Shown: positions 31,783-36,063 of the stretch, piece after piece
Position numbering within the stretch: the first letter of the stretch is position 1
Layout: each line of letters begins with the position of its first letter
Made by a program: the position numbers and the translations under genes
Notes under the pieces: model-generated
Database searches by the model: none
Told to the model about the DNA's origin: nothing
What the model saw: the letters and a program-made list of their open reading frames with translations, nothing else
Source: Aestuariimicrobium kwangyangense DSM 21549
GTDB lineage: Bacteria > Actinomycetota > Actinomycetes > Propionibacteriales > Propionibacteriaceae
Length of the DNA stretch: 64,000 nt
Assembly: GCF_000421525.1 (NCBI RefSeq)
Contig: NZ_ATXE01000001.1
Coordinates: forward strand, 434,001-498,000
Reading direction: 5' to 3'

Positions 31783-32331
31783 TCAGCTGATCGACTCCTG
31801 GTGCAGCGGGAACTCGCCGCGCTCCAGATCGTCCACCCAGTGGCGCAGGGTCAGCCGCACCGTGCGGAAGGCCAACTTCTCCCACGGTATGTCGGCGACG
31901 TCGAACAGCCTGTTCTCGATCGTCTCGATGCCGGGTGACAGGTCCAGGTCGGCAAGGCTCGCCCGGAAGAAGAGGTGCACCTGCCCGGCGCGGAGCACGT
32001 CGATGGCTGTGTACAGCCCGTGCATCGTGACCCGGGCACCAGCCTCCTCGCGGGTCTCGCGCTCGGCCCCCGCCGCGATCGTCTCGCCCAGTTCCAGGAA
32101 GCCACCGGGCAGCGTCCAGAAGTACTTGCGAGGCTCGATGTTGCGGCGACACAGCAGCACGCTTCGTCCGTCGTCCCAGGTCGGCACCGTGCCGACGACA
32201 TTGATCGGGTTGACGTAGTCGATGTATCCACACGCCGGGCAGACCGGTCGCGGCCGGTCCTCCATCGGCGGTACCTGCTGCTGCATGGGTGTTCCGCACA
32301 GACGGCAGAAGCGGATGTCGGGGGCGGTCAC
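31783..32331 (-). CDS. NUDIX hydrolase with N-terminal zinc ribbon
   Basis: A 182-aa protein. The first ~35 residues are a zinc ribbon (FCRLCGTPM ... VCPACGYIDY), as in NudC-type and related NUDIX enzymes. The NUDIX box GGFLELGETIAAGAERETRE followed by EAGARV matches GX5EX7REUXEEXGU. Such enzymes cleave nucleoside diphosphates linked to a moiety, for example NADH or ADP-ribose; the length is shorter than NudC, so substrate is open. GTG 32331 lies 6 bases after TAGGGT, a leaderless start. Confidence 0.9.
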   Translation of the reverse strand: MTAPDIRFCRLCGTPMQQQVPPMEDRPRPVCPACGYIDYVNPINVVGTVPTWDDGRSVLLCRRNIEPRKYFWTLPGGFLELGETIAAGAERETREEAGARVTMHGLYTAIDVLRAGQVHLFFRASLADLDLSPGIETIENRLFDVADIPWEKLAFRTVRLTLRHWVDDLERGEFPLHQESIS

Positions 32332-32343: not shown

Positions 32344-32417
32344 GCCGCGCGGGTGGTACGGCTGGTGGCACGTCGACCCAACCCCGGGACGACCACGGCG
32401 TAATTACACGCTTGTGG

Positions 32418-32449
32418 TTTTCCACACTGTGGACAACCCCTGTGGACAA
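32418..32449. promoter_or_regulatory. Cluster of three DnaA-type boxes
   Basis: TTTTCCACA (32418-32426) is followed by two perfect TGTGGACAA boxes (32428-32436 and 32441-32449), the reverse complement of the actinobacterial DnaA consensus TTGTCCACA. The flank 32400-32420 is unusually A/T rich for this window. It sits between the NUDIX and GNAT genes with no replication genes next to it, so a DnaA titration or regulatory site is more likely than the origin. Confidence 0.65.
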
Positions 32450-32477
32450 CTCTCACCGAGGGGTGCGCCCCAGCTGG

Positions 32478-32762
32478 TCAGGCGGCCAGCAGGTCGGCGT
32501 AGTCGTCGTGCTTGTCGATGTAGGAGGCGATGAACGGGCAGGTCGGAATGACCGTCTGCTCGGCTTGCCGGATCTGGTCGAGGGCACCGCGGACGAGCTT
32601 GGCCCCGACGCCCTGGCCACCGAACTGGGGGAACACCTCGGTGTGGGTGAGGTCGAGTACGTCTCCCGCGGCCTCGTAGTCGATGAACCCTGCGAGTTCA
32701 CCGTCGAGATGCGCCTCGAAGCGGGAGGAGTCGGGCTGCTGGGTCACGGTCAGGTCTGCCAT
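32478..32762 (-). CDS. Small GNAT-like acetyltransferase (NATD1/YjdJ type)
   Basis: A 94-aa protein of the minimal GNAT type: HLDGELAGFIDYEAAGDVLDL, THTEVFPQFGGQGVGAKLV (acetyl-CoA loop QGGQGVG-like) and VIPTCPFIASYI near the end. This short family has an acetyl-CoA site but no well-defined substrate. ATG 32762 has CACACT 6 bases upstream. It lies divergent to the phosphotransferase gene. Confidence 0.88.
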   Translation of the reverse strand: MADLTVTQQPDSSRFEAHLDGELAGFIDYEAAGDVLDLTHTEVFPQFGGQGVGAKLVRGALDQIRQAEQTVIPTCPFIASYIDKHDDYADLLAA

Positions 32763-34590: not shown

Positions 34591-36063
34591 TCACGGAGTG
34601 GGACGGCGGTAGGCCCGGTCGTCATTGAACTCCTGGGCCGCCGAGGGGGGCGACTCGTCCACCGATCGGGCCCCCGCCGGGTCGCCCTGCAGCGGGCCGG
34701 GCCGGGCCGGCATCGGCTCGTCCAGGGGTACCGGCTGGTCGAGTGCCGGGGCATCGTCCACGGGCCGGCGCTCCGGGACCTCCAACGGCGGCTGGTGCGG
34801 GGCATGGTCGTCGGTTGCCGGATCGGTGGCCGTGAATGGGGCCCGGTGTCGACCCAGCCCGATGGCGGCAACACCGACCGCAGTGGTGACGGGCACGGCC
34901 AGCACCAGCCCGATCGAGGCGATCGTGGTGCGCAACACCTCGGCCGCGAACACCTCCGAGGTGAGGGCCTCACCGACGGGCCTCTGCAGCACCGACAACA
35001 GCAGCAGCACCGGGAGCGCCGCCCCCGCCGCCGCGAAGGCGATGGTGTAGACCGTCGATGCGATGTGGTCCCGACCGATGCGCATGGCGCTGGAGAACAG
35101 CCTGCGCCGGTCGGTGACGGTGTCGGCCAACTCCCAGACGGCAGACGCCTGGGTGATGGTCACGTCGTTGAGCGCCCCCATGGCCGCCACGATCACCGCG
35201 CAGATCACCACCGAGGTCAGCTTCAGGTCGGGGGAGGCCGCCGAGAGACTGAAGTCGTCCTCGCCGCCGATGCCCGTCAGGTGGGCCCAGCGCACGCCCA
35301 CCGCGCCCAGGACGGCCGTCAACAGCAGCCCGAACAGCGTGCCGACCAGGGCCGTCGTGGTGCGAAGGGTGAAGCCGTGGGCGAAGTAGAGCACCACGAA
35401 CATGATCGCCGCGCTGCCCACCACGCCCACCAGCACCGGGTCCTTGCCCTCGATCAGGGCGGGCAGCATGAACCGGGCAATCATGAAGAAGGCGAACCCG
35501 AGTCCGACGATCGCGAGCAGTCCTCGAAGCCTCGCCACGGCCACCACGGCAACGGCGAACGCCACCGCGAACACCGTCAGGGGGATCGTGCGCTCGAAGT
35601 CACGGAAGGAGTAGATGACCTCGGTGGGGCTCGTCCCCGCCAGCGGGATGCGATAGACCGAGACCTTGTCGCCGACGCTGACCCCCGAGCGCAGATGCGC
35701 ATTCGTGAGGGTGAACGACTGGCTGGTGCCACGGTCGGGGCCGTCGTCGATGCGGACGTCGATGGCGACACACTCCGAGTCGGCGCCGGGCACGGCACCC
35801 GCCTGACCGTTGCAGCCGACGCTCTGGGTGGCGGTGATCGTGCCCACCTGGGTTGTCGCCCCGGGGACGACCTGCTCGATGCCGGTCGTGTCGATGTGCT
35901 TGGTGACGTCGTCGGGCCACAGCGCGACCAGGCCGATCAGGGTCGCCACCGCCAGTGGGATCAGGGCACCGACCAGCCAGGCCAAGGCCGAGCGGCGGTG
36001 CTCCCGCTGCGTCGGCGTGAGGTCGACCTCGGTCGAGCCGTGGTGGTGGTGTGACACCCGCAC
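34591..36063 (-). CDS. YibE/F-family membrane protein
   Basis: A 490-aa protein. A His-rich start (SHHHHGSTEVDL) and one helix are followed by an extracytoplasmic ~100-residue domain, then about seven hydrophobic segments with the family stretch GALNDVTITQASAVWELAD. The C terminus is Pro-rich and cytoplasmic. YibE/F proteins have no established function; transport has been suggested. GTG 36063 is used; GTG 36057 has the better-spaced AAGGGGG and is equally likely. Divergent from alkA. Confidence 0.85.
   Translation of the reverse strand: MRVSHHHHGSTEVDLTPTQREHRRSALAWLVGALIPLAVATLIGLVALWPDDVTKHIDTTGIEQVVPGATTQVGTITATQSVGCNGQAGAVPGADSECVAIDVRIDDGPDRGTSQSFTLTNAHLRSGVSVGDKVSVYRIPLAGTSPTEVIYSFRDFERTIPLTVFAVAFAVAVVAVARLRGLLAIVGLGFAFFMIARFMLPALIEGKDPVLVGVVGSAAIMFVVLYFAHGFTLRTTTALVGTLFGLLLTAVLGAVGVRWAHLTGIGGEDDFSLSAASPDLKLTSVVICAVIVAAMGALNDVTITQASAVWELADTVTDRRRLFSSAMRIGRDHIASTVYTIAFAAAGAALPVLLLLSVLQRPVGEALTSEVFAAEVLRTTIASIGLVLAVPVTTAVGVAAIGLGRHRAPFTATDPATDDHAPHQPPLEVPERRPVDDAPALDQPVPLDEPMPARPGPLQGDPAGARSVDESPPSAAQEFNDDRAYRRPTP

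Follow-up and report, generated by a model that had tools for sequence, protein, structure and literature searches.

A gap of 146 bp between the start codon of a NUDIX hydrolase gene and the stop codon of a GNAT acetyltransferase gene, within the 64,000-nucleotide stretch of DNA that was analysed (hereafter, the window; G000:C1:434001-498000 of a genome of 2.99 Mb in 5 contigs), holds three DnaA boxes in 32 bp, at 32418-32449 as the earlier note had reported. These boxes constitute the right part of a conserved element of about 50 bp that starts with a palindrome, AATTACAC-N3-TGTRGTT, and continues with the boxes in the order > < <, so that the palindrome, a head-on box pair and a third box are joined in a single unit. 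The features are as follows:

31783-32331, minus strand: NUDIX hydrolase gene (PF00293 and Zn_ribbon_Nudix), with its start codon about 70-120 bp downstream of the element
32401-32454, plus strand: extent of the complete element in the match to model R1 (E 2e-15; R1 includes the window sequence)
32401-32452: extent of the complete element in the match to model R2 (E 7.8e-14; R2 includes the window sequence)
32402-32419, plus strand: palindromic module AATTACAC-GCT-TGTGGTT (consensus AATTACAC-NNN-TGTARTT), from the alignment of relatives and the conservation of the left arm
32418-32426, plus strand: DnaA box 1, TTTTCCACA, pointing right, read from the sequence
32428-32436, minus strand: DnaA box 2, TTGTCCACA on the minus strand (TGTGGACAA on the plus strand), head-on to box 1 and 1 bp away from it
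32441-32449, minus strand: DnaA box 3, TTGTCCACA on the minus strand (TGTGGACAA on the plus strand), its start 13 bp from that of box 2
32478-32762, minus strand: GNAT acetyltransferase gene (PF14542), the stop codon of which borders the gap

A BLAST search of the window gap alone against 57 relatives yields short strong matches, several of which start to the left of box 1, and in the aligned relatives AATTACAC-NNN-TGTARTT is followed by N-TCCMCA, then by TGTGGANAAC and then by a second TGTGGANAAC. Model R1 was built from 11 such sequences and R2 from 62, the window sequence included; the calibration was short, and the E-values of both models are rough. The A/T-rich patch to which the earlier note had drawn attention beside the boxes contains the left arm of the palindrome of the conserved element.

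The strict consensus TTWTNCACA is found once in the window, with 0.21 occurrences expected, and a single box therefore means little. The triple TCCACA-N0-5-TGTGGANAA-N2-5-TGTGGANAA likewise occurs once in the window and is absent from all 100 shuffles, and 60 Markov-random windows contain no triple even with one mismatch per box allowed. The outcome that the earlier note had named as telling against its reading, frequent clusters of this kind across the genome, is not seen: single boxes are indeed over-represented (TTNTCCACA words, 54 genome-wide vs 23 for the reversed pattern), but the window element is the sole match to R2 in the host genome at E<=1e-6. As a stand-alone motif, the palindrome is not enriched in the host genome (4 places with at most two mismatches vs 7 for the reversed control). 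Only two places come within one mismatch, one being the window site and the other lying upstream of dnaA; the latter copy, TTACACGCATGTAGTC at G000:C1:237130, lies about 200 bp to the left of paired boxes. A similar copy is present near dnaA in G012 (L071), and palindrome-like matches with at most two mismatches are found in 3 of 31 dnaA loci.

Word counts alone were rejected as proof of DnaA sites: 8 of the 12 close same-strand pairs (up to 60 bp apart) are direct repeats at 29-31 bp, several of them before competence-type genes. These repeats, TTGTCCACAG-N~20-TTGTCCACAG, account for eight same-strand pairs at 29-31 bp in the host genome (L013, L020-L022, L024, L025, L027 and L028), where 0.001 would be expected at 28-31 bp, and for 35 exact pairs in 14 of the 57 relatives (L293-L322), with none for the reversed control. 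A crude ORF caller puts a start codon 42-56 bp beyond the end of the repeat in 21 of 38 loci, three of the loci being duplicates. The genes behind the repeats include recA, comEA, a second ssb, DUF4244, AbiEi/REase and DUF222 genes, and a comF-like gene that falls just short of the Pfam cut-off; DUF4192 and ATP-grasp genes also found in this position are a poorer fit to competence. The direct repeat looks like the box of an actinobacterial competence regulon; the competence regulon of M. luteus has been called unknown (PMC12849477).

Occurrence of the element among Actinomycetota

At E<1e-8, R1 matches 25 of the 57 relatives, including 24 of the 33 that belong to the window's own family; of these 25 genomes, 9 are sources of the model sequences and 16 are not, and in at least one of the 25 (G004) the match is confined to the boxes. 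In a sample of the class, R2 matches 45 of 138 genomes at E<=1e-6, the other 93 being without a match at that threshold. With lax thresholds, all 57 relatives (R1, E<=1) and 32 of 32 genomes (R2, E<=0.01) are matched; many of these matches are box pairs or oriC, and they were left out of the element counts.

An exact-pattern search of assembled contigs, with the palindrome core and boxes 1 and 2 as the pattern, gives at least 120 loci, which do not equate to genomes (L217 and L219 are in one record). By title, 118 of the 120 loci listed are actinobacterial, ranging from Acidimicrobiia to Bifidobacterium, Corynebacterium, Microbacterium and Nocardia; the remaining two are titled Acidobacteria (L118) and only 'bacterium' (L209). 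The columns inside the exact pattern are conserved by construction, and the test is in the columns outside it. At two bases of the left arm that the pattern does not fix, A at -4 is conserved in 117 and T at -2 in 106 of the 120 listed loci. The third box, also outside the pattern, is present in 101 of the 120 (at least 8 of 9 positions, spacing 11-14 bp), compared with 144 of 2968 shifted places (4.9%) that served as a control. The spacing between boxes 2 and 3 is 12 bp in 70 and 13 bp in 23 of the 120 listed loci; the 13 bp of the window is also the spacing of the box pair upstream of dnaA in the host genome. The gap between boxes 1 and 2, 1 bp in the window, is 0-3 bp in all 120 listed loci, 3 bp being the maximum that the search pattern allowed.

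Some loci depart from the single composite unit. In family f6, which we take for Streptomyces, 6 genomes were searched and four loci examined; three of these (L278, L283 and L286) have boxes between genes for a rhomboid protein and CrgA, with a match that begins at model position 19 or 20 and leaves the palindrome part unmatched, and the fourth (L281) has neither rhomboid nor crgA. In G049, G052, G037, G043 and G274, model matches on the two strands overlap, which suggests a palindrome flanked by boxes on both sides. Two copies of the element are located about 1 kb apart in L035 (1503 and 2468) and 32 kb apart in G001:C34 (35727 and 67777).

Gene context and distance to dnaA

The genes that recur next to the element encode a rhomboid protein (PF01694) and CrgA (PF06781). 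Among the 120 listed loci, 70 contain both genes, 12 only crgA, 12 only the rhomboid gene and 26 neither. In 67 of the 70 loci with both, the element lies between the two genes, which are convergent in every one of these 67. The palindrome end faces crgA in 39 of them and the box end in 28, and both orientations occur among loci titled Microbacterium. This flipping between convergent genes points to a DNA site rather than an RNA or a promoter. A promoter or terminator is disfavoured on these grounds, and an RNA element was rejected for the same reason, along with the finding that no Rfam family reaches the gathering score within the window.

The window element is not adjacent to crgA or to a rhomboid gene, an association that is usual but not defining. 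The host crgA is located at C1:17598, 220 kb beyond dnaA on its other side, with no TTNTCCACA box in the surrounding 3.3 kb. Hence the element appears to have moved away from its usual neighbour, into surroundings that are partly common to some Propionibacteriaceae: homologues of the window gene at 34591-36063 are found near the element in G005 and G029, and 6 kb from it in Acidipropionibacterium timonense. A comparison with 269 other loci gave no homologue of the NUDIX or the GNAT protein at E<=1e-3, and the NUDIX gene is probably context rather than a functional partner.

The dnaA gene, which the earlier note had proposed to locate as a check on its suggestion that the region is origin-proximal, is found at C1:237917, on the same contig as the element and 228 kb from it, or about 15% of half the chromosome; the element is accordingly on the origin side. 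Given this distance and the boxes that dnaA has around it, oriC or a fragment of oriC was rejected as an identity for the element. A dnaA match is present in all 138 genomes of the class sample, and the R2 match and dnaA are on one contig in 36 of 45 genomes and on different contigs in 9. The distance is 5-105 kb in the 35 genomes other than the host, a range in which the values for G239, G272 and G210 run through the joined ends of one contig assumed to be circular, G225 is a partial match, and the one-contig requirement favours short distances where contigs are short. In 12 single-contig genomes without end-joining, the distance is 10-57 kb (combined p 6e-12 under random placement, for genomes that are related and in which conservation extends to the gene order around crgA). 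In seven single-contig genomes belonging to the window's family, the element is 29-444 kb from dnaA, in all seven within 20% of half the chromosome (combined p 0.004; in three of them, G004, G021 and G028, the R1 match is without all or part of the palindrome), which is moderate evidence for an origin-side position at the family level. Outside this family, closeness to dnaA is confounded with the conserved gene order around crgA. The position of the element is nonrandom, and this suggests selection on position as such.

Possible functions

The architecture, the conservation and the origin-side location of the element, together with the binding of DnaA to the gap that holds its mycobacterial counterpart, as demonstrated by others both in vitro and in vivo (see below), support the earlier reading of the boxes as a DnaA site, and the window element can be regarded as a relocated copy of a widespread element that very probably binds DnaA and may help to control the timing of chromosome copying. 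With a probability of roughly 0.6, we consider it to be a high-affinity DnaA element of an ancient and widespread actinobacterial type, separate from oriC, that acts as an origin-side DnaA sink. DnaA would occupy boxes 1 and 2, the head-on pair, as well as box 3, and the adjacent palindrome may take either two more weakly bound DnaA subunits, its arms being degenerate DnaA boxes, or a second protein. Copied early after initiation, the doubled element would take up DnaA from the free or active pool and in this way would help to set the time of the next initiation. We place the sink first among the mechanisms because titration in E. coli has been argued from the enrichment of DnaA boxes near oriC (PMC12371093) and because the locus is on the origin side. 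Several points speak against it, namely the location away from crgA in the host, the 93 of 138 class genomes without a match, and the 13 bp between boxes 2 and 3, which brings to mind E. coli purH, where one added base (a gap of 4 instead of 3) strongly lowered binding (PMC11317965); the last of these is offset by the same spacing in 23 of the 120 listed loci.

The main rival to the sink, which we find rather unlikely, is a DARS-like reactivation in which the head-on boxes 1 and 2 would hold ADP-DnaA, contact between the subunits would release ADP and the level of active DnaA would rise, with box 3 and the binder of the palindrome assisting. Both DARS1 (in the bioD-uvrB gap) and DARS2 (upstream of mutH) of E. 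coli K-12 have three boxes in the order and orientation found here, > < <, with boxes I and II opposed and 12 bp from the second to the third compared with 13 in the window. In its box order, the element is nearer to these sites than to a simple cluster. The boxes of DARS1 are TTATCCACT/TGTGGATAA/TGTGTATTA. Boxes I and II of DARS are reported to act head-to-head, and the presence of a further conserved module beside the boxes recalls the IHF and Fis sites of DARS2 (PMC8682772). However, the first gap is 5 bp in both DARS and 1 bp in the window (0-3 bp in all 120 listed loci, under a pattern that stops at 3), and the two DARS are among 52 similarly arranged box pairs in E. coli (PMC5835720), so that arrangement alone is no proof of function. 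For these two reasons, we do not file the element as a DARS.

If the palindrome protein were the main binder and DnaA a secondary one, the element might instead be an origin-side site of chromosome architecture or segregation, a reading that we judge improbable. The strong conservation of the palindrome and the five genomes with apparent boxes on both sides of it would fit such a role, whereas the three f6 genomes with no palindrome in the match still have boxes between rhomboid and crgA. M. tuberculosis HigA2 binds in vitro an ATCAC-N-GTGAT palindrome in the Rv0010c-Rv0011c gap of the mycobacterial counterpart, but the binding needed 8 uM protein (PMC11205783); this result indicates that the palindrome is readable by a protein and says little about which protein binds it naturally across the phylum.

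The DnaA-controlled promoter that the earlier note had considered does not emerge as a favoured reading, and control of the NUDIX gene by the element is highly improbable: the distance of about 70-120 bp to the start codon would suit it, but the gene context and the orientation vary between genomes while the element is kept, with locations between convergent gene ends (67 of 67 crgA-rhomboid loci) or beside other genes and without homologues of the NUDIX and GNAT proteins in the other loci compared. Even less probable is that another protein recognising TTGTCCACA, for instance the presumed competence regulator, has its site here, since although the eight direct-repeat pairs in the genome indicate that TTGTCCACA need not mean DnaA, the geometry differs (an inverted pair plus 13 bp vs 30-bp direct repeats), there is no fixed promoter linkage and the counterpart is in a gap with measured DnaA binding.

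Relationship to known DnaA-binding loci

Control of DnaA outside oriC, by datA and DARS, has been worked out for E. coli. The element resembles E. coli datA in being non-coding, on the origin side, with DnaA boxes away from oriC, and a datA-like titration role is possible by analogy; dependence on an IHF site and DnaA-ATP hydrolysis are features of datA itself. In Streptomyces coelicolor, H69, H24 and D78 are reportedly high-affinity DnaA-box clusters around oriC, and the removal of one is said to have raised initiation. In three of the four f6 loci examined, boxes are located between rhomboid and crgA, and the S. coelicolor clusters may overlap the element described here.

A close parallel is mycobacterial. 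Genus g36 is mycobacterium-like by gene order and CrgA sequence; only one of its 7 genomes in the class sample passed R2 at E<=1e-6, and a repeated search with laxer filters gave near full-length matches in 6 of 6 genomes (E 4e-7 to 1.4e-4), each of them beside crgA, with a cyclophilin gene beyond, and 13-36 kb from dnaA. Rv0011c of M. tuberculosis is crgA. In vitro, M. tuberculosis DnaA is reported to bind five regions, namely oriC, rpmH-dnaA, the region upstream of dnaB, Rv0010c-Rv0011c and Rv3843c-RVnc0040, binding to the Rv0010c-Rv0011c gap being documented by IDAP-seq and EMSA, and ChIP-seq places M. smegmatis DnaA in vivo at homologues of the same five regions (PMC7738170). A palindrome is described 65 bp upstream of Rv0010c in M. 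tuberculosis (PMC7738170); in L287, about 49 bp separate the end of the head-on pair from the start called for the next gene, a geometry that seems compatible with this position. The g36 genomes carry the palindrome, the head-on pair and a third box beside crgA, in contrast to the window element, which has no crgA next to it and lies 228 kb from dnaA. Like mycobacteria, the host genome has boxes upstream of dnaA (L014) and before dnaB (L013), the latter being four TTGTCCACA boxes upstream of the helicase gene (G000:C1:54303-54580; L013 1304-1581); for both M. tuberculosis and S. coelicolor, TTGTCCACA is listed as the high-affinity box (PMC4285127).

For the mycobacterial site, the authors of the binding study state that there is 'no obvious correspondence' in other species (PMC7738170), and our search of a largely open-access literature found no report that links these elements across species. 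Conservation across Actinomycetota would supply this correspondence, through a comparison made by way of g36 rather than with the M. tuberculosis sequence itself. On a tentative view, to which we give clearly less than even odds, Actinomycetota possess an ancestral replication-control locus outside oriC, in which a DARS-like three-box site is combined with a palindrome for a second protein, and which is kept on the origin side after leaving crgA. Should this be true, a switch of DnaA activity would extend across the phylum, and the DnaA site in which mutations recur among clinical tuberculosis isolates would be an example of it; the conservation of the element also offers a reason for selection on the mycobacterial site. 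With harmless laboratory species at hand, a compact, deletable element that extends from Acidimicrobiia to Corynebacterium makes the control of DnaA in this phylum directly testable.
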